DNA of 64,000 bases from the NCBI RefSeq assembly GCF_030653755.1, contig NZ_JAURYU010000037.1, forward strand, positions 1 to 64,000, read 5' to 3'. This stretch comes from Methylotenera sp. GTDB taxonomy: Bacteria; Pseudomonadota; Gammaproteobacteria; Burkholderiales; Methylophilaceae. The notes beneath the pieces are model-generated. The model worked only from the letters and a program-made list of their open reading frames with translations. It ran no database searches and was not told where the DNA came from. Positions within the stretch are counted from its first letter, which is position 1; each line of letters starts with the position of its first letter. Below, one piece after another: positions 285 to 15,095 of the stretch. The translations under genes were made by a program, and so were the position numbers.

Positions 285-1265
285 TCACCACATGACAGGT
301 GTTGGCTCGATGTAATCTATAGCCTTTTTAAGGCTGGGTATATTTCGTGTTAACTTGTACGGAAGGCTGCTCAAGTTTTGAAAGATTACAGATGCTAGTA
401 AAAGAAGATTAATCAGTTTTGGGTCGTCTTTTATGATCTTGTCGAGCCCTTTATTAAGCTCTCCAGCAGAATTCTTTTTTAACTCAGGAAAATTTCTTAC
501 TAACCATGCTCTTGGAAATTTCTCAATTAAGAAATCACTCAAAAGTGTATCACTGGGCCGTAAAGAATTGTAAATGAGTTCATTAAACTGATAATTAATC
601 AGGGAGGATATATCAGAATAATCAAAATTATGATCAGTAGCTGATAGATATTGAATGAGATTAATGAATTTCTTAATAAAACGGTTCTGCCCTGATTCAT
701 CATTTATCTCATAAATAAGATTTTTATGACTTTTTATATACTTGTAAGGTGGCTGATTCATCGCATATTCTTTATACACAATAAATAGGCCACAATGATG
801 TTTTAAGCACCAATCTACACCTATAAGTTGGTGGGATCTTTTCCAGCTAGAGATCCCATATTCATCTATATCCTCTTCAGCACATTTTTTGCAGAAAAAT
901 GCCCCTTTTTTCATTATTTTTCTAGCATATTCATTGAAAACAACAGGTTTCTTGGTGGGTCTGTAATGATATGAATTTCTTGTTATCAATAAAGGAATGA
1001 GCGTGTGATGTTGAATAAATTCTTTATATGGAGTTTGGGACATAAGAGCTAGCTTATACGACATGGATGCTTTTATATTTTCATAATCAGCATTGCCAAA
1101 AAGACCATTAAAATAGGGATTGGCTTTCTGAATTGTCGGAATGTCCTTAATACTATTAGCCATCAGTATTCTGCCAAAATATCCAATCCAGAATTCATCA
1201 GGTATCAAAGATGGAATAAATAAGTGTGATTTGGGAAAAATAATTTTCTTTTTTTTGGCGGTCAT
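285..1265 (-). CDS. tniQ: Short TniQ-family transposition targeting protein
   Basis: This 326-residue protein is the second TniQ-type protein of the operon. TniQ proteins join a target-recognising factor to the TnsC ATPase. The visible signature is a TniQ zinc-ligand set, C125-x2-C128 then C153-x2-H156, with an intervening SSWKRSHQL stretch matching the family pattern. It lacks the long C-terminal DNA-binding portion of the neighbouring TnsD-like protein. Its start overlaps the stop of that gene in an ATGA arrangement, so it is co-translated. No cas gene or CRISPR array lies next to it in this window, so what it pairs with is unknown. Family call is fairly sure; targeting role is inferred. 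Confidence 0.8.
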   Translation of the reverse strand: MTAKKKKIIFPKSHLFIPSLIPDEFWIGYFGRILMANSIKDIPTIQKANPYFNGLFGNADYENIKASMSYKLALMSQTPYKEFIQHHTLIPLLITRNSYHYRPTKKPVVFNEYARKIMKKGAFFCKKCAEEDIDEYGISSWKRSHQLIGVDWCLKHHCGLFIVYKEYAMNQPPYKYIKSHKNLIYEINDESGQNRFIKKFINLIQYLSATDHNFDYSDISSLINYQFNELIYNSLRPSDTLLSDFLIEKFPRAWLVRNFPELKKNSAGELNKGLDKIIKDDPKLINLLLLASVIFQNLSSLPYKLTRNIPSLKKAIDYIEPTPVMW

Positions 1266-2986
1266 AATTTATTTAATCGCTGAATTTCACCTTGAACCCA
1301 TAATTTTGATTTTGGTAATTTATCTAATCTTGGTGAAAATGATAGTTTCGGAAGACGCCTCAGAAAAGCTTTAGGTTTTATTCGTTCCCAGCTTTCAAGG
1401 TTTTCCATATTTATAACCTTTAGTGCAGCCAAACACTGATTGTCTCTTTTTACCCAGTTAACTCTTGGTTTAACAGGAAGTGATTGTGCTCTTTTTATTG
1501 TGCGTTTCGTTGGTAGGTGTTGTGACAGCCATAATAAATCATTGTTATAGAGCCACCGGTATCCTGAGTCGTTACTTTGCCTTAGCTCAGATTGTGTTGT
1601 TGATGGATAGAGGGTTAAAAAATTCAGAAACTTTTCACGTTCTTTTTGACGTTTGTATTTCTTGTGGGCTTCTTTCCAAATTTTCTGCAGATTAGGTTCT
1701 TCATTACATATTCTGTCAATGGAGGAGCTCGAAAGTCCCGTTTGATAGGAAACGGCTTTCAGTGGGCAGCCCTGTTTAAGAAGATTGATAACATTCGCTC
1801 TGATCTTTGCAGATATTGTTTTCGGTTTGCGTGGTATTTCAATGAGGCCTAGTTTTCCTAACCATCGCATGGCTGTATTGATGTTTATATTTAGCTGTTT
1901 TGCAAGTGAAGTAAGCGATCCTTTTTTATTATTAAACCGGTTTGCTAATTCAAGAAGGTGGTCTTCAAGATCTTTGCTCAAGTTCTTATGGCTAGGGCAG
2001 GTGGCTTGGAGTTTGGTACCATTCTCTAATGGCAGATCCATTTGTTGTTCCCATAGATAGACCGAATTAAACAATTTCCAATCACCAAAAAGGAAATCGA
2101 CCATAATCAGATGACTCGCTGTATGGAAATTTACTCTGGGTTTGCGCACTAATCTTAATAACCCATCTGCAAAGCGAGACCCTACAATCCGGTCAAATGT
2201 CGGAAGGTTTGATATGGCTTCATAATGTTTAGTTATTCTATTAACGAAATCTTTTGCTCGCACACGACCTGATACTGAAAGTAGTCCCTGCTGCTTTAGC
2301 CCATGTAAATAGGTTGCCTTTAGTGAATTGGCTGAATAAGGTGCGGATAACTCTTGGTCAAGCACCATTGATGATAATGTGGATAGTCTTTCCAGTATTG
2401 GTTTAGCGCTACCTATTAATTGTTTAGATTGATATTTCTGAATCTCATCGTCATTAGGCAAAAATAGGCCAGAGCGACCACGACCATTAATTCTTAGTTT
2501 TGCATAATTCAATGGAGTTGAATGTGTAGGACACACCATGACGGTTGGCAATTGATGTTTGCGGTGCCAATATGCATATCCATAATTTATAATATCCTCT
2601 TTAAGACATTCGTTGCAATAACTCAATGGTAGGAATGCCCCTGATGGTCCTGGCGGTAATCCCAAGACAAACTTAAGAGGCTCTACCGTTGACCCAGCCA
2701 TCAATCCTAAAGCTTTGTCATGAGTGGTTTGTGGACGAAAGCGTAAAAAGTAAGGAAGTGTGGAAGTCTTGATTGCTACTTCAATTGGGTTTCCAAAAGC
2801 ATTGCCAGTTTTGTTACAAAATACATCTAGATCTGGCGAAAAGTCATGTCTTAGTGCTGCAGATGAGTTGGAGAAAAGGGTTCTGCTGATTTCTTCTGCT
2901 TTTCCAATACCATTTAAGCGTTTAGTAACTGCAAGTAATGAATAGAAAGTCATGTCTGGATTTAATATTGGCATCATGATTTGCAT
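1262..2986 (-). CDS. tniQ: TnsD-like TniQ protein, target-site selector
   Basis: This 574-residue protein has an N-terminal TniQ domain with zinc ligands C124-x2-C127 and C152-x2-H155. A long C-terminal part carries helix-turn-helix-like segments around residues 355-385 and 400-430. The layout is that of TnsD, which binds a chromosomal attachment site at the 3' end of a conserved gene and recruits TnsC. The start overlaps the tnsC stop (TAATG) and the stop overlaps the next tniQ gene (ATGA). It is the likely site-specific targeting factor; a nearby candidate target is the 3' end of sodB, which is inference only. Confidence 0.85.
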   Translation of the reverse strand: MQIMMPILNPDMTFYSLLAVTKRLNGIGKAEEISRTLFSNSSAALRHDFSPDLDVFCNKTGNAFGNPIEVAIKTSTLPYFLRFRPQTTHDKALGLMAGSTVEPLKFVLGLPPGPSGAFLPLSYCNECLKEDIINYGYAYWHRKHQLPTVMVCPTHSTPLNYAKLRINGRGRSGLFLPNDDEIQKYQSKQLIGSAKPILERLSTLSSMVLDQELSAPYSANSLKATYLHGLKQQGLLSVSGRVRAKDFVNRITKHYEAISNLPTFDRIVGSRFADGLLRLVRKPRVNFHTASHLIMVDFLFGDWKLFNSVYLWEQQMDLPLENGTKLQATCPSHKNLSKDLEDHLLELANRFNNKKGSLTSLAKQLNININTAMRWLGKLGLIEIPRKPKTISAKIRANVINLLKQGCPLKAVSYQTGLSSSSIDRICNEEPNLQKIWKEAHKKYKRQKEREKFLNFLTLYPSTTQSELRQSNDSGYRWLYNNDLLWLSQHLPTKRTIKRAQSLPVKPRVNWVKRDNQCLAALKVINMENLESWERIKPKAFLRRLPKLSFSPRLDKLPKSKLWVQGEIQRLNKL

Positions 2987-4482
2987 TACATGCCTGCCTT
3001 CTCAATTTCTATTCTTAATTTTTCTAGACTCTTAAGATTGCTGTTAATCAATCCTTGCTGACGTATGTCCTCTGGACTCATAGTTGCAATCAGTTTTGCC
3101 CGATTTTCAACTTTCTTTTGGTTACGCTTTTGCTCAAGCATGAGCTTTGTTTTTCCAGATAAGGGTCTTTTCTGTTTGGTCCTTTCTTGCACCGCCTTAT
3201 TTGAAATTTCATTTACATGTATTGTTTTTTGTTTGTTGTTGTCTTTTAATTGTTCCCATATGGCTTTGTAAAATTCGTCATTAACATCAGGATATAACGC
3301 TAATAGTTCTGAATTTTTGTAATGGAATCCGTCTGCTAACGGTCGCATTTCATCAAAACAAGCTGACTCATAAGCAGCCAGAATGTCAGCAGGGCCGATT
3401 GTTTTGCTGCCGTCATATAAAGCATTAGTTTGTGCGTAACACCACAAGGTTAGTGCTAGTCTTGCGATTCCTCCACTACATATCCTTAAAGTGAAGGAAC
3501 ACTCTTCTGGGTTAGTGATCGGATTCTTTAGCAAGTAATATGAAGATACTCCATCAAAGAGTGCATCCCATTCATCATCGGCTTCACGCTCATTCATCGC
3601 ACCTATTGGAGAAAAAAGGGATTCTTGAGTTAATCCAAAGCGCGATTTATCTTGGCTATAGTCTACCCAGTTGAAAGCGCATTCATTGCCTGAAAAGACC
3701 AATGGAATACCGGAATTCATCAATTTTAGTAAAAACATTTGCATCTGCTCAGCCTGCGCTGAGTCAACGATATTACGTAATTGCGCTTCGTCCACGAATA
3801 TAATGCCTGTGTAGTGGGCGACTAATCTTCCTATGGTGCCCACTGCCAGTGTTTCAACAGTTCTGAATTGTTTGGGTAAATTGTCTGCATAGTTGGTTTC
3901 CAAGTGTTTGTCCATCTCGGATAGTATGCTTATCAAGAATCCGCCACGGCTGCCATCGTGCGACAGATCAACGTTAAGATAAACCAATTGACGCATATTT
4001 TGCCATCCAGCAGCTTCCACTTTCCCGTGATCAATCACTTGAGGAAGGCATGCACAGAAGCGCTTATGCGTCACAGTTTTTCCAGTCCCGGTGGGACCTT
4101 TCATTATATTGATCGCCATTCCTGAAGTTGGAGCAACAGGAAGTCTGGTTTTGCCTTCATTAGCGCATTCTAGAACTTGGTAGTAGTATGCCCTGTTATT
4201 GGCAAGGGTAGGATTTCTGGCTCGTAAACCATTCACAAGCATGCCATGCCAGGTTATTGCTGCGCGTACAGATTTCATTGTCGGTTCTAACGGCGTTTTT
4301 TCTCCAGCTAACAGTCCAACTTTATCGACAAATGACATGGTGTTGACATCTATGCCTTCCAGAGGATTAAAAGCGATAGCATCTACTACGTCCTCATAAT
4401 TGTTAAAGACCGGAATTTGCTCAAGTAGAGGATTGTAAGCATAAAACCAAGATTGAGTTCTAGCGTTATCTAACTCAGACAT
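2986..4482 (-). CDS. tnsC: TnsC-like AAA+ ATPase of Tn7-like transposon
   Basis: This is the AAA+ regulator that links target selection to the transposase. Counted from the upstream in-frame ATG at 4488, the Walker A motif GPTGTGKT is at residues 131-138 and the Walker B motif IIFVDEAQ at 229-236. The start was placed at 4482 (498 residues) because AAGGAG lies about 8 bases upstream of that ATG, while it nearly touches the ATG at 4488. The gene overlaps the end of tnsB and abuts the TnsD-like gene. The C-terminal tail is rich in lysine and glutamate, as expected for a segment contacting the transposase, but that role is inferred. Confidence 0.88.
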   Translation of the reverse strand: MSELDNARTQSWFYAYNPLLEQIPVFNNYEDVVDAIAFNPLEGIDVNTMSFVDKVGLLAGEKTPLEPTMKSVRAAITWHGMLVNGLRARNPTLANNRAYYYQVLECANEGKTRLPVAPTSGMAINIMKGPTGTGKTVTHKRFCACLPQVIDHGKVEAAGWQNMRQLVYLNVDLSHDGSRGGFLISILSEMDKHLETNYADNLPKQFRTVETLAVGTIGRLVAHYTGIIFVDEAQLRNIVDSAQAEQMQMFLLKLMNSGIPLVFSGNECAFNWVDYSQDKSRFGLTQESLFSPIGAMNEREADDEWDALFDGVSSYYLLKNPITNPEECSFTLRICSGGIARLALTLWCYAQTNALYDGSKTIGPADILAAYESACFDEMRPLADGFHYKNSELLALYPDVNDEFYKAIWEQLKDNNKQKTIHVNEISNKAVQERTKQKRPLSGKTKLMLEQKRNQKKVENRAKLIATMSPEDIRQQGLINSNLKSLEKLRIEIEKAGM

Positions 4483-6898
4483 TTGCATATCTCCTTTCCC
4501 GGCGTTTCCTAAGAGCAGCTAATGCAATGTTGTTTTCCTCAGATACGGAGTTGGCTTTTTCAGATTTCATCTCTTGCATGCTTAGTTGAGTTATGAAGTC
4601 TTTTGTATTTTCTCCATTTTTGTCGGAGATACTGGATATGTCTGGTGGTGAGCTGGTATTTACATTTTCTGGAATCTGTGGCGGCATTCCGTAAATGAAT
4701 CTTCCTTTTTCTTGATTACGATTATCTTTTTTATTTCTTTTTAAAGAGGCTTTGGATGGAGGTTTGTCTAATTTGGAAAGTGAGTCCTGATATTCCTCTT
4801 CAGCATTTTCTTTTGTCTGTTCTTGATGAAATTCCAGATCGCTAAGTGTTTGATTGCGAGACTCTTTGACGTTGAATGAGTAAATTGCATCTCGCTTCAT
4901 AAGATCAACAATGTCTGGCATGCTGCACTCATCAGGCAGATCGCTATCTTTAGTAACTAAATCAAGCTTGATTAATTCGCCGGTGTAAATATCTTTAAAG
5001 AAAATCTCTGTCGGTTTGTATGGGTTGTGTAGGAAATCATCATCGTGTGAAATGGCATTCACTCTTGCCCGAGCAACTTTAGCTTTCATGGCACGCGCTT
5101 TGATGAGAGGGTGATGGCTGATGTACCGAATTTGCTCAATGAATTCACGTTTATTTCCAGTATCGGTTCTTAAAAGTTTTACGCCATGCTGTGTGAATGT
5201 GCCACGAACAGGAATAAGTAATTTGATGAGTGCTTCATCTTCTCCCATTAAAGTTGTATGACATCTTCCCCGATTGATTTCCCAGCGAGTCAGGTTGGCT
5301 CTCGTGAGTTTTATGCCTTTTTCAATCAGGTCACGTCTCATTTCCAGTGTTGGCTGGATATCGAGCTCAATGGTGTTATGTGTATATATGGCACGAGCAG
5401 TTTCACGGATTGCTTCTATTGTTGTGTGCCTTGCCAGGACAGTTGCAAGCTCTTCTCCGCGCTCGTGTTTTTGTCCATGTGTCGTGCCATGCATATTGTG
5501 GTCAACCATTCGATGTAAAATATGGTGTGAGGTCTCTACAGTTGCGTTTAGATCTGATCTGGCTACACCAACAAATTTGATGCCAGTACCTATGGAGGCC
5601 AGTTTTTCTTCGACTGCCTGGCAGCGAAGATCTGTATTGTCTGCAGTGACTGATCCATATTGAATTGGTATCCAGTCTTCCGGGTTTTGGTCATCAAGAC
5701 CAAGCCACTTTAGCCATTCTGTTTTGTCTGTAAGTGAGTGAAGAAAAGCTAAACCTACAGTTTCGGCGCTTGGTGCATCAAGACCCAGATAGAATCCACT
5801 TATGTAGTAATACAGACCATCTACAATAAGAATTCTGTGAGCTGTTCCGATCCTATCCAGTCGGCTTGCGACACTTACTAATTCCACATCAATGCTTGTT
5901 GAATCAACTGCACCTCGCTGACCGACAGCGATAATGTCGCTATCCGATGTACCAAATAGCACACGTCCTAAGCGATTAAGGTTGAATTTTGAGATCTGTT
6001 TTTTCCAGCTCTCATGACCGGGCGATCTATTCTGTCCCCATGTTTCAAATTGATTTTGTGAAGGGTGTTCATTTATCCTTTTTAGCGATAGGACTGATTT
6101 TCCTTCGTCATTAATTGAAATGTCAGAGTAAAACTCGCGCCTCATCTTTCGATGTGCTTTTGTTATGGTGCTACCTTTGATGTAGTAATTTCGCCATGCA
6201 AATCCACAGATATCTTTGTCTTGATCTGACATTATGAATCCGGCGGTATTGTTAGCACCGTTTGTTGTTGGTGTATTCGGCCTGCCAAGCTTCCGTTTCT
6301 TTTTAGTACTTTTTTCTTTTCCTCTACCGCCTTGATTTGCTGAGTATGGCGTGACTGCTCCGACCGTACTTCCTTCTGCAAAATACTGATTTAATATCTC
6401 GGAGATCTGTTTAGTTATTCTTTTAAGTGAGCAATCTTCACTTTTTAAGTCGTTCGCTCTTTTTGTAATAAGCTCGGATCTAACCTGAGGGTCAAACAAT
6501 AATGTTATGTTTTCATGATCATGAACAAGCGGTTGAATAATTGCATATCTCTCTGCTCTTTTCTTTCTTGGGATACTGATTGACTGGCCCTTACGTAGAT
6601 ATTTCTTGTCGAGTTCATCATCTGTTGCCATGACGTCAGCACGAGGTTTTACGCCATTGGTCAGGAGACGGAGCTTATGCTGAGAGATTTCCTCATTGAT
6701 TCGATCCAAAGGTAACGACCTCATGCCCACAAAATACAATCTCATGTTGGTTTTATTACTTCCGGATCTTTTGGGAAGAATCGGAATAACTATACTTAGA
6801 TTATTGTCTTTATTGATATATAAGACCCTGACTATGCAATCTAGTAACGCACTACCATTTTTTGTTTGAATGGCCATGCCTGGGATGATGTTGTTCAT
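4475..6898 (-). CDS. tnsB: TnsB-like DDE transposase
   Basis: This 807-residue Mu/Tn7-type transposase would join the 3' transposon ends to target DNA. The retroviral-integrase fold carries a plausible triad D332 (AVDSTSID), D420 (SVTADNTD) and E455 (NATVETSH). The last two are 35 residues apart, the classical D-D(35)-E spacing. The N-terminal 200 residues should bind the end repeats, and a lysine-rich stretch around 195-206 precedes the core. The charged C-terminal tail (from about 690) probably contacts TnsC. Start and stop overlap tnsA (ATGA) and tnsC. It is somewhat longer than Tn7 TnsB, about 700 residues. Confidence 0.9.
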   Translation of the reverse strand: MNNIIPGMAIQTKNGSALLDCIVRVLYINKDNNLSIVIPILPKRSGSNKTNMRLYFVGMRSLPLDRINEEISQHKLRLLTNGVKPRADVMATDDELDKKYLRKGQSISIPRKKRAERYAIIQPLVHDHENITLLFDPQVRSELITKRANDLKSEDCSLKRITKQISEILNQYFAEGSTVGAVTPYSANQGGRGKEKSTKKKRKLGRPNTPTTNGANNTAGFIMSDQDKDICGFAWRNYYIKGSTITKAHRKMRREFYSDISINDEGKSVLSLKRINEHPSQNQFETWGQNRSPGHESWKKQISKFNLNRLGRVLFGTSDSDIIAVGQRGAVDSTSIDVELVSVASRLDRIGTAHRILIVDGLYYYISGFYLGLDAPSAETVGLAFLHSLTDKTEWLKWLGLDDQNPEDWIPIQYGSVTADNTDLRCQAVEEKLASIGTGIKFVGVARSDLNATVETSHHILHRMVDHNMHGTTHGQKHERGEELATVLARHTTIEAIRETARAIYTHNTIELDIQPTLEMRRDLIEKGIKLTRANLTRWEINRGRCHTTLMGEDEALIKLLIPVRGTFTQHGVKLLRTDTGNKREFIEQIRYISHHPLIKARAMKAKVARARVNAISHDDDFLHNPYKPTEIFFKDIYTGELIKLDLVTKDSDLPDECSMPDIVDLMKRDAIYSFNVKESRNQTLSDLEFHQEQTKENAEEEYQDSLSKLDKPPSKASLKRNKKDNRNQEKGRFIYGMPPQIPENVNTSSPPDISSISDKNGENTKDFITQLSMQEMKSEKANSVSEENNIALAALRKRRERRYANV

Positions 6899-7818
6899 CT
6901 TGTTACTCCTGCCATGGAATTTCTTATTGCTTGAATTAGAGCTAAGCCACCTTTTTTTGGAGGTTGTGATTCTTTCAACTTTACTGAAAGATCACAGTCG
7001 ATTAACTGGTTCCAAAGGATATGGTTTTTAAAGAAAGTGGCCTGCGCAGGTGAGCAGTTATAGTCCGTGATCAATCTTTCACGAATACTCTGCAAAGGTT
7101 CATTTTGTGCAGCCTCTCCGTGACGATCCAGAAAACTATGTAAGGTATATGACCAAGGATGAGTTGCAGGAAGAATTGCCGCATCAGCGAGCAATTCAAG
7201 CTGTGCAAAGACTGGTCCAGGGAAGAGAGATCTATCCCCAACAAAATAGTTTATTCCAAGCTGATTGGCATATCTTCTTTCACACTCCAGCTTTTCAGTT
7301 CCACGGTGTAGAGGATCTACATACAAATACTGTTCTGAGGTTAGAGGTTTTACAGAGATTAGGCATGTGGACTTCTTTAAATCAGATACCCAAGGCATGT
7401 GAGCGCAAAGATCCATGCTCCAGATATATGGAATATTTGTGCCTACAAAAGTACCGTGTTTGATTCCTGCATCTCTGCATATTTCAGCCATTCCCACTGA
7501 TTCGGGTAGGATTGAGTCCATTTCTTGGTTACGACTGTATTCTGGGTGGCTATGTTGCCATGGCCATAGCGGAAATTGCTCCCTGATATGCGCACCAACC
7601 CAACTGAAGAGTAGCCCCAAATACCACTCGCTGTGAGAGAAAAAGTGACACTCTCTTTTGAATCGGGGTAGAGCTTTTAGTACCTGCACCGACATCGGCG
7701 ATGGATTCCAGCGTTTTATTTCTAGCACGGGTTTATAGTATTCACCAAAACCAGTGCCCATGCCTGAAGCCATTGCACTATTCAATCTAACCCATGTGAC
7801 TTTAGGTGCGCGCGCCAT
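6895..7818 (-). CDS. tnsA: TnsA-like endonuclease of Tn7-like transposon
   Basis: This 307-residue protein matches TnsA, the restriction-enzyme-like nuclease that cuts the 5' ends and so allows cut-and-paste transposition. The catalytic pattern is visible: SEWYLGLLFSWVG (glutamate), IWSMDLCA (aspartate) and ISVKP (lysine), followed by the family-typical LECERRYANQLGINY. A shorter C-terminal helical region follows. The start is preceded by GAGGTGAAATA, a good ribosome-binding site, and overlaps the stop of a 15-codon upstream reading frame. It is the first gene of the five-gene tns operon. Confidence 0.85.
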   Translation of the reverse strand: MARAPKVTWVRLNSAMASGMGTGFGEYYKPVLEIKRWNPSPMSVQVLKALPRFKRECHFFSHSEWYLGLLFSWVGAHIREQFPLWPWQHSHPEYSRNQEMDSILPESVGMAEICRDAGIKHGTFVGTNIPYIWSMDLCAHMPWVSDLKKSTCLISVKPLTSEQYLYVDPLHRGTEKLECERRYANQLGINYFVGDRSLFPGPVFAQLELLADAAILPATHPWSYTLHSFLDRHGEAAQNEPLQSIRERLITDYNCSPAQATFFKNHILWNQLIDCDLSVKLKESQPPKKGGLALIQAIRNSMAGVTR

Positions 7819-11898: not shown

Positions 11899-12348
11899 CT
11901 ATCGAAATAAGTCGACTAATTTTTTGAAAACTACGGTAACAAAACTTAATCTAGCCACTTCAGGCTGAACATTTTGAATTTTTCTTGCAAGTTTTTGCTT
12001 GTCATTTCGTTCAAAATGTTCAGATTTTCTATACTTGTCTCTCTTCCTGACCTCATCGACTTGGTCTTTTGAAAACTTTCCAGACCACTCAATTTTGCCA
12101 CTTCTGATCCAATAGTGGGACTGACAAGGAAAGCTCCAATTACCAATTGAAGGACTTAGAGAAATATTTTCCCCGTCATATATCAACTTCCAATCTGTTG
12201 GGGATAATGGCGTTACGACTTTATTGCCACAACCACAGCAGCAGTTATGAATCGCTGTTCCAAATCCCATGGATACATAAAGTATACCGTCCTTCAGTGA
12301 CTGTGGCATGTACTCTACAAATTCCGCCTCAAGAAATTCAGTCTTCAT
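11899..12348 (-). CDS. DUF6527-like zinc-ligand protein of ubiquitin-like cassette
   Basis: A 149-residue protein with a cysteine-rich centre: C36, C37, C38 and C40 (HNCCCGCGNKV), then C75-x2-H78 (PCQSHYWI), arranged to hold a metal ion. The pattern CGCG, PSIGNW, CQSHYWI fits the DUF6527 family as I recall it, which accompanies bacterial Multi_ubiq/E1 genes. Its start overlaps the E1-like gene by 11 bases, making it the last of three coupled genes. A role as ligase-like, carrier or hydrolase partner is not shown. The C-terminal third is basic. Confidence 0.65.
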   Translation of the reverse strand: MKTEFLEAEFVEYMPQSLKDGILYVSMGFGTAIHNCCCGCGNKVVTPLSPTDWKLIYDGENISLSPSIGNWSFPCQSHYWIRSGKIEWSGKFSKDQVDEVRKRDKYRKSEHFERNDKQKLARKIQNVQPEVARLSFVTVVFKKLVDLFR

Positions 12349-13507
12349 TTATACATTCGCTTAAGTATAAGTTTGTATCAACAGTGTACGTAGAATGATG
12401 CTCGCTTTCGTGATCATGATAAAACCCGCTTAGTTTTTTCCACTTTATTACAGCCAAAGATGCGTTTAATGAGTTCAAATCTGCAATCTGGATATTTTGC
12501 GCATATTCGTCATCATCTCTATCAACCAATGACACTTTTTTAATAAAATGGTCACGCTTTGCTTCAGTACTAGTGGTAACTCTTAGAGTGGCTATTAGAG
12601 CATTTTTTACAGCTTGTACGCCAATTCCTACATCAATGAAGGAGGTGCCTTCGTTTTCAAGTTTAGCTATAAGTAACTTCTTAACTTCACCCTTATCTAT
12701 GCATATAAATACAAAGTCAAAATGTGGTAAGTCATTAATATTTTGATCATTAAGATATTCAGAATGTGCAACAATATTCTTATGCATTTTTGAATATACA
12801 TTATTGAAATAATCTACTTTATAGTTTTTCTCGTTAAGTTCTTCTAGGCTGATTGCGCCTGGTGCACGGAAAGCATTGTGCTGTAAAAATCTATCGCCAT
12901 CAAATAAGTGAATTTCTGCCACAGGTGTTTTAGCAACAAGATCTAATACGTATGAGCCAGTACCACCCAGACCGATAATTGCAATTTTCTTACTTTTAAA
13001 TTTATCGTTAATTGTTGAAATACCTGCTCGGCTTGACCATGAATCTAGATAATGAAAAACAGACTCAGGATCTTCTGATTCAATTACTTTAAAAGTCTGT
13101 GCGGATAATCCAGTTGGGGCCGAAATAATTTCGATGTAACGCTTCATTTTCTCGTAATAATCAGGATAACCAAGTCCGTCACGAGGTTTGCTAGAAAAAG
13201 AGTGATTAACCTCTACACCTTCTGCGAGTATCTGAGTGTTTGATGTATGTCTAAAGCCTTCTATTGGGGACCCATTTTTATGACATGGGTAATCTCCTTT
13301 AAACATTCCAACGTGCGTATCTGGCTTAGTAGTAATATTGCCAGCGAGATGCAATGTTGAAACCACAGTGCCATACTTAATTACACGGTCTGCATTGATA
13401 TATGGTATGCCAGAAATCAGTAAGTGACCCGATTTTATTTGTACCTCATATCCCTCGTCACGCAGTTTCTTTAGATCAGGACTATGATTTATCAGTTGGT
13501 GTGACAT
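12338..13507 (-). CDS. E1-like ThiF-family adenylyltransferase with N-terminal DUF6791-like domain
   Basis: A 389-residue two-domain protein. Residues about 165-320 are a ThiF/E1 Rossmann domain: GLGGTGS at 179-185, FDGD with D203 and D205, an N211-x2-R214 pair (HNAFR) and DFVFICID at 264-271. Such enzymes adenylate the C-terminus of a ubiquitin-like protein. Residues about 1-160 fit the DUF6791-type N-terminal domain, with GDYPCHK carrying C75. Cysteines are few (C75, C269, C386), limiting candidates for a thioester. It overlaps the Multi_ubiq gene by 26 bases and the DUF6527 gene by 11. No separate E2 or JAB peptidase gene is in the window. Confidence 0.75.
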   Translation of the reverse strand: MSHQLINHSPDLKKLRDEGYEVQIKSGHLLISGIPYINADRVIKYGTVVSTLHLAGNITTKPDTHVGMFKGDYPCHKNGSPIEGFRHTSNTQILAEGVEVNHSFSSKPRDGLGYPDYYEKMKRYIEIISAPTGLSAQTFKVIESEDPESVFHYLDSWSSRAGISTINDKFKSKKIAIIGLGGTGSYVLDLVAKTPVAEIHLFDGDRFLQHNAFRAPGAISLEELNEKNYKVDYFNNVYSKMHKNIVAHSEYLNDQNINDLPHFDFVFICIDKGEVKKLLIAKLENEGTSFIDVGIGVQAVKNALIATLRVTTSTEAKRDHFIKKVSLVDRDDDEYAQNIQIADLNSLNASLAVIKWKKLSGFYHDHESEHHSTYTVDTNLYLSECINED

Positions 13508-13763
13508 TGAATATCATCCCTTTCTTAATTTTAACTGTATCACCAATATCCATGGCACCTTGTTGATTTGATGATGTGCCTTTTTTGTATGTAACTGTGT
13601 AAATAACATTGCCACCTATAACTGCGCTAGGGAAGCATAGTTGAACAACTTCAAGGTATGTTATGTCCTTATCGTCAACTACTTGCTCGGTTGCATTTAC
13701 AATGATTGTAATTTCATGCTCTTTCGATTTATGAGGTTGTGATTGATTTTCTAATTCATTCAT
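13482..13763 (-). CDS. Multi_ubiq-family ubiquitin-like protein (single domain)
   Basis: A 93-residue protein matching the prokaryotic Multi_ubiq beta-grasp family: ITIIVNATEQVV, ITYLEVVQLCFP, VIYTVTYKKG, then IKKGMIFNVTPTDKS at the end. Only one ubiquitin-like domain is present, and it ends in TDKS rather than a diglycine. The start was set at 13763 because GGAGAG precedes that ATG, whereas the longer frame to 13826 runs into the divergent promoter region. It is the first of three overlapping genes with the E1-like and DUF6527 proteins, and presumably the modifier or substrate of that system. Confidence 0.8.
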   Translation of the reverse strand: MNELENQSQPHKSKEHEITIIVNATEQVVDDKDITYLEVVQLCFPSAVIGGNVIYTVTYKKGTSSNQQGAMDIGDTVKIKKGMIFNVTPTDKS

Positions 13764-13890
13764 ATTGCTCTCCAAATTATGAGGTTTGTTTGCTGCATAA
13801 TTACAAAGGCTTAATAAGCATTGCATGCAGACAATTAAATTAAATATTTTTTATTTGTCTGCATCGTTAAGTTTTGGAGCCTTACGTTCT
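13764..13890. promoter_or_regulatory. Divergent promoter region of ubiquitin-like and sigma-like genes
   Basis: A 127-base intergenic gap between the outward-reading Multi_ubiq and sigma-like genes must hold both promoters. I could not assign convincing -35/-10 pairs in it, which would fit control by the neighbouring sigma-like protein, though this is not evidence for it. Confidence 0.35.
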
Positions 13891-14463
13891 ATGGGAAATG
13901 CATTGATCAAAAATGAAGATGTACAAGATGTTCTGTCGATATCTGAAATTAAGATATGCCTAGACACGCTTACAGAAGCTAAATGGATAAAACTGGGTAA
14001 AACTGCAAATAACTTATGTGTAGGTTTACCGTTTGAGGGAGCAGATCTTTTACATATTGTTGTATGTAAAGCGCTTGAAGGTAAGCGGAAATGCCGAAAA
14101 TATTTGCCGATTGAGGTTTTTATATATGGTGCTATGGAGAGCTTAGTCGATGCATTTATTAAAAAGCGTAAGTCAGATCCACTTCAGCTAACTAGACATA
14201 TTTCTGAGGAAAATGATGTCACAGAGCTAATTGACTTGTTTAGTAATAATATTGACACGCCTGAAGAAGAGTTAATTGCCAGTCAAGCTTTGCAAAGGAT
14301 TGAACAGTTATTTGAAGGTGACGAAAATTCATTAAAGATTTTATCTTACCAAATGGATAATTTAACACCTGCAGATATTCAAGAGTTAATGCAACTTACT
14401 TCAGTGCAGTATGCAAGTGCATTAAGAGCTATTCGACGTAAATATGAAAAATTGGAAATATAG
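13891..14463 (+). CDS. Sigma-70-like regulatory protein
   Basis: The start at 13891 (MGNALIK, 190 residues) has GGAG about 11 bases upstream; the frame also opens at 13825, without such support. The region EGADLLHIVVCKALEGKRKC with IEVFIYGAMESLVDAFIKK resembles sigma region 2 of small phage-type or ECF-like factors. The end, NLTPADIQELMQLTSVQYASALRAIRRKYEKL, resembles a region 4 helix-turn-helix. It is divergent from the ubiquitin-like cassette and followed 8 bases later by a partner gene. It may switch on the cassette. The sigma assignment is by eye and tentative. Confidence 0.55.
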   Translation: MGNALIKNEDVQDVLSISEIKICLDTLTEAKWIKLGKTANNLCVGLPFEGADLLHIVVCKALEGKRKCRKYLPIEVFIYGAMESLVDAFIKKRKSDPLQLTRHISEENDVTELIDLFSNNIDTPEEELIASQALQRIEQLFEGDENSLKILSYQMDNLTPADIQELMQLTSVQYASALRAIRRKYEKLEI

Positions 14464-14471
14464 GACTCAAT

Positions 14472-14885
14472 ATGACTAGCGAAGCAAAAAATACTTTTGA
14501 GCAGTTATTTAATATTGCTCAAGCAAGATCACGTGAAATTATCAGTATGCCTGACGATGAAATATTAATTGAAGCTAATAAGGACTCTACACTGAAGAGC
14601 GATGGAATTATGGCTAAAAATGCATACCTTAAAGCGCTGAAAACAGTAAATTACCAAGAATCAAAAGAATTTGAACAGAAAAACAATAGTTTTAATTTAG
14701 CAAATATATTAATAAAGGGTATGGATGTTAGTTTGGTTCGACAAAAAATCATGGGATTGGCCGCTGCAAATGATCCATCTTTACAGCTGGTCGCAGGCAG
14801 AGTTAGCTCATTGTCTGATGATGAGGCATTAAAGATTTATCAGAATCTACTATCTACTGGGGTGCTTAAGTCTGATCCCAAATAA
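14472..14885 (+). CDS. Unrecognised small soluble protein paired with sigma-like gene
   Basis: A 137-residue helical, soluble protein with no cysteine, signal peptide or membrane segment, starting 8 bases after the sigma-like gene. Its position suggests an anti-sigma or accessory protein, but no motif supports this. The C-terminal half (DVSLVRQKIMGLAAANDPS, then LSDDEALKIYQNLL) is predicted helical. Real coding is supported by its length, spacing and codon use like the preceding gene. Confidence 0.5.
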   Translation: MTSEAKNTFEQLFNIAQARSREIISMPDDEILIEANKDSTLKSDGIMAKNAYLKALKTVNYQESKEFEQKNNSFNLANILIKGMDVSLVRQKIMGLAAANDPSLQLVAGRVSSLSDDEALKIYQNLLSTGVLKSDPK

Positions 14886-15027: not shown

Positions 15028-15095
15028 AGAGTTACGTATTTAATATTATCGACATCTCATAAAGTTACGTATTTATTATTTAAGTTACGTATTTA
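15028..15095. repeat. Three copies of a 12-bp repeat, possible transposon end
   Basis: GTTACGTATTTA occurs at 15031-15042, 15064-15075 and 15084-15095; the last two belong to adjacent 20-bp tandem units. Between them and the sodB stop lie only 22 bases, which on minus begin TGTGACAATTGTTTCTGCAG right after the stop codon. A TGT terminus followed by closely packed 20-bp repeats is the layout of a Tn7-like right end with TnsB sites, and this is the tnsA-proximal side as in Tn7. The call is inferred; no matching left end was found. Confidence 0.4.

Follow-up and report, generated by a model that had tools for sequence, protein, structure and literature searches.

The DNA analysed here, called the window, is a stretch of 64,000 nucleotides from Methylotenera sp. 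(NCBI RefSeq assembly GCF_030653755.1, contig NZ_JAURYU010000037.1, positions 1 to 64,000 of the forward strand), in which a ubiquitin-like gene cassette and a sigma-like gene with a small companion are read away from each other. On the minus strand the genes encoding Multi_ubiq, a DUF6791-ThiF (E1-like) protein and a DUF6527 protein overlap and on the plus strand, divergent from them, are the gene of the sigma-like protein, hereafter SIGL, and that of a protein of 137 amino acids (aa), hereafter MID (Table 1). This five-gene layout had been described in an earlier note made from the sequence alone, and open reading frames (ORFs) together with Pfam and NCBIfam matches revealed all five genes. 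The intergenic region given there also holds, with Multi_ubiq most likely starting at ATG 13763 and SIGL at ATG 13891, which leaves 127 bp between them. The sigma-like ORF of the same note (13825-14463) does contain the gene but its start had to be moved, to ATG 13891 judging from relatives or to TTG 13903 when aligned with the Methylotenera proteins.

Multi_ubiq, the E1-like protein and DUF6527 make up what we take to be the defining gene set of the Bub operons, and all three are present in the window. By its genes the cassette appears to be a ubiquitin-like one of defence type, with conjugation and phage protection as putative functions; phage protection by Bub operons is so far undemonstrated according to the Discussion of PMC13373217.

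Table 1. Features of the window around the divergent intergenic region
Feature	Position	Strand	Remarks
SIGL, ECF-type sigma-like protein	13891..14463	+	190 aa from ATG 13891; TTG 13903 alternative; ORF open from 13825
MID, 137-aa all-helical partner, proposed anti-sigma	14472..14885	+	no Pfam family
Degenerate motif LQLVAGR in MID	14781..14801	+	relatives: LT(L/M)AAR(N/K)
Divergent intergenic region with paired promoter-like motifs	13764..13890	both	127 bp
Promoter-like TGTCTG-N16-AGCCTT, facing SIGL	13856..13883	+	held-out score 16.1, above shuffle 99th percentile 14.6
Promoter-like TGTCTG-N16-AGCCTT, facing the Multi_ubiq cassette	13806..13833	-	held-out score 11.7, shuffle 95th percentile 12.1
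Multi_ubiq, one matched domain, C-terminus ...TPTDKS	13482..13763	-	PF14452 E=7e-16; ORF open to 13826
E1-like, DUF6791 (E=9.6e-51) and ThiF (E=4.2e-11)	12338..13507	-	NCBIfam PRK06153.1-4; 86% identity to L240
DUF6527 protein	11899..12348	-	PF20137 E=1.2e-26
C39-like putative cysteine peptidase, 526 aa	9546..11126	-	Peptidase_C39_2 E=9.8e-5, 23.4 bits against cut-off 24
TniQ-, TnsD- and AAA (TnsC-type) genes	285-4488		Pfam scan
Two proteins without Pfam match	4475-7818		includes the 807-aa protein (4475-6898), presumed TnsB
sodB, xerC and further chromosomal genes	from 15118		

Recurrence of the gene pair opposite different cassettes

Of 187 genomes of the family Methylophilaceae, 9 have a close SIGL relative (E <= 1e-8) and 12 have Multi_ubiq. 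The same five genes recur in the same order, together with the C39-like gene, in four genomes of another genus (L240-L243), with identities to the window of 86% for E1, 75% for Multi_ubiq, 66% for SIGL, 63% for DUF6527 and 57% for MID, and no protease match was found within 8.7-16 kb around these loci. Over 2,982 bases the four do not differ, and they enter the motif statistics below as one. Two further family genomes (L249, L250) show a more distant SIGL, MID and protease opposite a Bub cassette so that, with the window, the pair stands beside Multi_ubiq in 7 of the 12 Multi_ubiq genomes of the family. L244-L247 appear to be the contigs of L124, L127, L125 and L133 over again and are not independent of them.

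In plasmids, tblastn with SIGL gave 14 records and two more queries extended the set; 19 records were examined, two of them unannotated, and 14 of these have SIGL and a gene for about 140 aa followed by a gene for an ImmA/IrrE peptidase. On the opposite side lie Multi_ubiq and ThiF, in some cases with DUF6527 (Paracoccus, Pseudosulfitobacter, Mesorhizobium and S. meliloti; in Aestuarium a Multi_ubiq match), or a CD-NTase with SAVED or phospholipase (Roseivivax, Cereibacter sphaeroides 2.4.1 and Bradyrhizobium septentrionale), or still other genes, the module of the laboratory strain Cereibacter sphaeroides 2.4.1 facing an operon of a cyclic oligonucleotide-based antiphage signalling system (CBASS). 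Besides plasmids and Methylophilaceae, the pair opposite Bub cassettes was also found in Thiobacillus, Geobacteraceae, sphingomonads and Roseobacter-type bacteria.

When genome contigs were scanned with an alignment of the peptidase, 281 relatives appeared, and among the best 80, which were kept, SIGL and MID matches lie upstream of the CapP-type ImmA/IrrE protease in 76, L146 with only a sigma fragment being included. The four misses are two loci cut by a contig end (L157, L168) and two without the pair at the thresholds used (L118, L164); these four and L146 stand outside the cassette counts. Of the genome loci, 75 have a complete SIGL, and their divergent sides carry Bub in 14 (13 by script and L158, which the script left unclassified and which has a Multi_ubiq ORF), CBASS in 16, E2/E1/JAB in 10, Pycsar in 3, Beta_protein in 1 and small genes (DUF2188, DUF3892 or a 92-aa protein) in 21, with 8 unclassified and 2 at a contig end. 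The hidden Markov models (HMMs) used for the cassettes were built from members of the same loci, and assignments were checked against Pfam and PADLOC in L097 and L121 (E2/E1/JAB), L033, L107, L116 and L143 (cyclases), L134 and L156 (Pycsar-type) and L025 (Beta_protein). With the same models, a comparison of both sides at the 52 loci having at least 5 kb on each revealed 33 with a defence cassette on the divergent side and 1 with such a cassette beyond the protease (48 against 1 with the small genes included).

On a tree of 95 SIGL rows the cassette labels need 38 changes, compared with a minimum possible of 8 and a mean of 59.2 for shuffled labels, indicating that cassettes cluster and yet have been swapped many times. 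The window groups with three proteins from Methylophilaceae (clade 100/91) whose genes lie opposite DUF3892/DUF2188-type genes, which places a cassette swap near this point of the SIGL tree. Since the pair is found also opposite CBASS, Pycsar, E2/E1/JAB and small DUF genes, SIGL-MID is, judging from its neighbourhoods, a general controller module and not a part of the ubiquitin system, and its relatives, usually with the protease, resemble a portable switch for turning on bacterial immunity. The tie between sigma pair and ubiquitin-like cassette seen by the earlier note is thus real and recurs elsewhere but is not exclusive. Taken literally, most relatives of the pair are unlinked to Multi_ubiq, which the note had named as speaking against its idea; they mostly face other recognised cassettes.

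With the window protein as single query only the window itself was matched among 300 genomes of the order, and an HMM matched 58 of 349 genomes of the phylum, mostly weakly; the weak matches are taken, as a group, for ordinary extracytoplasmic function (ECF) sigma factors. The moderately scoring relative G056 has no MID or protease match in the surrounding 17 kb. Phages gave no match, 74 pattern matches of SIGL alignment A5 in viral contigs gave 0 confirmed cases, and alignment A1 was dropped from the contig scan as too diverse.

Two kinds of gene facing the module may be mentioned separately. The 92-aa protein (MIYAINYDL..PGQNY), conserved and without Pfam family, often occurs with DUF2188 (L033 4546-4824 and similar loci), and in L033 its gene comes before a CBASS operon. 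In L025 and L169 SIGL relatives lie opposite a gene for Beta_protein (PF14350, Pfam-checked in L025), possibly a further defence cassette.

SIGL, the paired motifs and MID

A profile of 71 SIGL rows matched Mycobacterium SigH (E=1.6e-6) and AlgU (0.0016) in the Protein Data Bank (PDB). The AlphaFold2 model of SIGL (mean pLDDT 85.9, pTM 0.58) shows two helical parts, residues 17-95 and 124-189, joined by a low-confidence linker. The top 20 Foldseek rows for this model are sigma factor chains, sigma-bearing transcription complexes or PhyR (best E 7.9e-3). VIA-align gave Z up to 9.4 with a large root mean square deviation over both domains, because their arrangement differs; the C-terminal domain fits at 2.1-2.9 A over 61-70 residues in several rows. 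Model, profile and the paired motifs described below support the note's claim of a sigma-like protein, predicted to be of the two-domain ECF type with sigma-2 and sigma-4 type domains.

When analysing the intergenic regions of the module a two-part promoter-like motif, TGTCYG-N16/17 followed by a GC block, appeared on both strands; in the window one copy on each strand faces outward. To our knowledge TGTCYG...GC is not a usual ECF promoter. Statistics were made on 90 of 97 loci after removal of near-copies, with more distant kin remaining between held-out folds and with the seed pattern of the matrix taken from a first look at some of the same loci. The pattern TGTC[CT]G-N15..18-AGC occurs in 34 of these intergenic regions on the plus strand, 28 on the minus strand and 25 on both (0.44, 0.78 and 0.0 in shuffles). 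A held-out two-block matrix (TGTCCGa ... [CA]GC[AC]TA) exceeds the 99th percentile of shuffles on the plus strand in 70, on the minus strand in 62 and on both in 53, and the spacer, being 16 or 17 in 131 of 132 sites, is the same on both strands in 47 of the 53. The motifs are consistent with candidate -35/-10 promoters for SIGL. In the 2.49-Mb genome TGTCTG-N16-AGCCNT matches 4 times, twice as the window pair and twice inside ORFs (1 match for the reversed pattern), and the regulon of SIGL is likely to be the module itself and the cassette.

MID is helical throughout in its AlphaFold model (mean pLDDT 83.2, pTM 0.47). It weakly matches PADLOC capH (E=0.0093), and its profile found no CapH in the PDB at E <= 5. 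At the end of the MID proteins a conserved stretch, LT(L/M)AAR(N/K), was found, and each of 91 protease-bearing modules (91 of 91) has AAR within the C-terminal 75 residues. Of the modules without protease, 1 of 7 contains it as a plain string and 0 of 7 have it in register; Fisher's test on the string count gave p = 6.7e-9, kinship not being corrected for. The seven protease-less loci are the window, L240, L021 (where the string is present outside the motif register), L024, L030, L038 and L041; they fall in about three places on the tree, L240, which is absent from it, being put with the window by identity. In 4 of the 7 the second protein is shortened to 79-97 aa, although 3 of these 4 were assigned by position only, and in all seven the AAR motif or the entire C-terminal part is missing in register. 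L024, L030 and L041, with a SIGL relative and a short second gene, lie near methyltransferase-like genes (Bradyrhizobium and Microvirga plasmids).

The protease, where present, resembles CapP: a representative matches PADLOC capP with E=3.2e-67, and the profile matches the solved structures of CapP (E=1.4e-15) and IrrE (E=8.1e-8). The genome of the window, 99.68% complete, has no Peptidase_M78 match. In Deinococcus, DdrO is cleaved by PprI in a loop with a critical Arg and single-stranded DNA activates the reaction (PMC10904395), and by this analogy AAR is a reasonable candidate for a cleavage or docking site.

Mobile element context and neighbouring genes

The earlier note's idea that a Tn7-like element carries the cassette may or may not hold. 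In its favour, TniQ/TnsD/TnsC-type genes are adjacent in the window. The 807-aa protein is 26% identical to a Mu-transposase-like protein of Methylotenera L133 and was for this reason taken as TnsB. In L133 (same contig as G1109:C16) a SIGL-MID-CapP module at 3230-5392, about 1.6 kb from the gene of this transposase-like (TnsB-like) protein, is divergent from a small gene that is followed by the transposase gene. From this arrangement the SIGL-MID-CapP module may travel with Tn7-like elements.

Other observations do not favour Tn7 cargo: the contig begins at window base 1, inverted alignment of its start with three candidate stretches gave no matching ends above shuffles, and the presumed TnsB found no match in 8.7-16 kb around the four closest homologous loci. 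At the other side, the sodB terminator is common to the window and congener G1005, the sequences diverging at about 14965 (by eye), and none of the four congeners compared showed the island in the stretch of about 0.3 to 14 kb that follows sodB. Just downstream of sodB, at 15030-15095, AGTTACGTATTTA occurs as three direct copies, with others on contig C8 at 2004 and 2124; as a Tn7 end they were rejected by eye, a copy following sodB in a congener without the island. TGGCCTTTTT occurs twice in 1-284 near the contig start and is possibly part of a transposon end. In L240 the homologous cassette has in its vicinity a ComM-like ORF (659-1261) that, judged by eye, appears truncated, as would be expected had an island inserted into comM.

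The C39-like gene accompanies the cassette in the closest relatives L240-L243, and homologues exist in the Bub loci L082, L083 and L255; its 526-aa product is a candidate processing or deconjugating enzyme.

Proposed control circuit and comparison with known systems

The explanation that fits best, and which we regard as probable as a whole, is that SIGL is a dedicated alternative sigma factor recognising the two matching outward-facing intergenic promoters, one of which would drive the SIGL-MID operon and the other the ubiquitin-like cassette, and that MID is an anti-sigma partner keeping SIGL inactive. In most family members a CapP-type ImmA/IrrE metallopeptidase would cut MID at or near AAR upon a stress signal, which by analogy with CapP and PprI may be single-stranded DNA, and the SIGL so released would turn on both operons with positive feedback. 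The window is a protease-less version, in which MID might be removed by a host protease, by the neighbouring C39-like peptidase or by titration; alternatively, the circuit may be less tightly held there. With no such peptidase in the genome and AAR gone, the MID of the window would need another release input. The module is well supported and its function, including regulation of the cassette by SIGL, is what we infer from its anatomy.

A number of observations weigh against this reading. The Pfam scan gives no sigma match for the SIGL of the window, and its best NCBIfam match, sigma70-ECF (E = 0.0049), reaches 16.5 bits with a cut-off of 42.9; the relative L033 comes nearer, with 19.5 bits for Sigma70_r2 against a cut-off of 24. 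Foldseek found nothing at E <= 0.001 for the SIGL model, and Z up to 9.4 is in the range graded middling by the tool for helical models. For MID there is no PDB fold match at E <= 0.001 and no profile match of weight. By the held-out general matrix the plus site of the window passes the 99% level and the minus site falls just below the 95th percentile, and the both-strand 99% test is failed by 37 of the 90 loci. The motif on the plus strand stops 7 bp short of ATG 13891, a distance more easily reconciled with a start at TTG 13903. A looser pattern, TGTCTG-N15..18-AGC, has 5 matches in the 64-kb window compared with 2.08 expected and is thus not rare, so that a single site means little and the outward pairing is the signal. 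Finally, in other genomes of the class the pair is absent at 13 of 13 Multi_ubiq loci (two of which, L086 and L089, have a CapP-like match), and the protease-less copy of the window might be decaying.

The two motif copies also form an inverted repeat around an AT-rich centre, in the window ATGCAGACAA...TTGTCTGCAT, and SIGL could be an operator-binding regulator instead of a sigma factor, with the inverted TGTCYG pair as a palindromic operator at which bound SIGL alone represses or activates. Among the 50 best inverted repeats listed for 101 regions, the distance between the arms varies (for instance 5, 6, 9, 17, 20 and 33 in L101, L091, L033, L098, the window and L113), whereas TGTCYG and the second block keep a spacing as fixed as in a -35/-10 pair; because of these spacings, and with the structural matches of SIGL being sigma factors, such an operator is decidedly improbable. 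A sigma factor accompanied by a MID that is a positive partner or an unrelated effector, with CapP-type cleavage either switching the circuit off or activating MID, is unlikely but has to be reckoned with, as MID has no PDB relative of meaningful score; against it, the set of sigma factor, small partner and protease fits the logic of CalpS/CalpT/CalpL, and from the in-register loss of AAR or the C-terminal part at all seven protease-less loci it would seem that only the part facing the protease can be spared.

That the module of the window is a decaying remnant, the pair having no role without the protease and the cassette using an ordinary promoter, agrees with the lack of Peptidase_M78 in the host, with the lost AAR and with the lower similarity of MID (36%) than of SIGL (55%) to the homologues of Methylotenera L124. 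We think it improbable, since the two ORFs are intact, as are the two promoter-like motifs, not only in the window but also in the L240 type, whose SIGL is 66% identical, so that the arrangement without protease has persisted while the sequences truly diverged. A chance neighbourhood of unrelated genes might be read from the 13 class loci lacking the pair and from the Rhizobium, Acinetobacter and Runella relatives examined, which lack it too, but its probability is practically nil: the pair recurs opposite Bub cassettes in several groups, and the 76 of 80 module loci together with the side control (33 of 52 against 1 of 52) rule it out.

Compared with Bub operons, the window has the same trio of Multi_ubiq, E1-like and DUF6527, and the close E1 relatives on Rhizobium, Acinetobacter and Runella plasmids have the three genes without the sigma pair. 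The CapH+CapP system likewise stands beside Bub and CBASS operons, with a presumed DNA-damage input (PMC13373217, PMC10904395), and its CapP/IrrE-kind protease is shared by most SIGL relatives; the differences are that no helix-turn-helix repressor CapH was found here, that SIGL and MID stand in its place, which implies activation and not derepression, and that the window itself lacks CapP. CapK+CapS and CapW/BrxR, too, are portable controllers and accompany immune operons such as Bub and CBASS, 231 Bub operons reportedly having CapK+CapS and 219 of 544 having CapW or CapH+CapP, but they are described as repressors (WYL, or STAS-winged helix-turn-helix with a GHKL kinase) (PMC13373217). In family scans SIGL and MID have no GHKL kinase, STAS-winged helix-turn-helix or WYL domain.

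The three families of adjacent-pathway controllers named in PMC13373217 are described there as repressors, and among the literature matches listed no sigma-type controller was described beside Bub, CBASS or CapP. In our judgement the chances are somewhat better than even that SIGL, its putatively cleavable partner and the CapP-type protease constitute an undescribed fourth controller family, which would switch Bub, CBASS, Pycsar, E2/E1/JAB and other operons on from paired divergent promoters and of which the window would be among the protease-less offshoots. Control would then come from provision of a sigma factor and not from removal of a repressor; activation as such would not be new, as the title of PMC10693628 reports a WYL-domain activator of adjacent genes. 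The question of how potentially cell-killing immune operons stay silent before they are called upon is open, and a portable module of sigma factor, partner and protease whose promoter signature can be read would demonstrate positive control and provide a simple motif for finding targets. It would also raise the question of what substitutes for the protease in the form found in the window.

With the ECF sigma factors SigH, SigE and AlgU, SIGL shares two helical domains and a linker, and its profile matches SigH and AlgU, but it scores under the curated Pfam and NCBIfam cut-offs. ECF sigma factors are also found inside the predicted immune neighbourhoods of the EACC2/caspase and TRADD-N conflict systems, although with other partners (caspase, TPR protein), and neither a CapP-type protease nor MID is mentioned in the sections used of PMC8195603. 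Closest among published systems is CalpL-CalpT-CalpS of type III CRISPR, having the same logic of sigma factor, anti-sigma factor and protease; its protease is of the Lon type and has a SAVED sensor that cyclic tetra-adenylate (cA4) activates (PMC12751052). Among the genes scanned beside the pair of the window no Lon or SAVED match was found, and the SIGL modules have a metallopeptidase or none and, unlike Calp, face Bub, CBASS, Pycsar and other cassettes.

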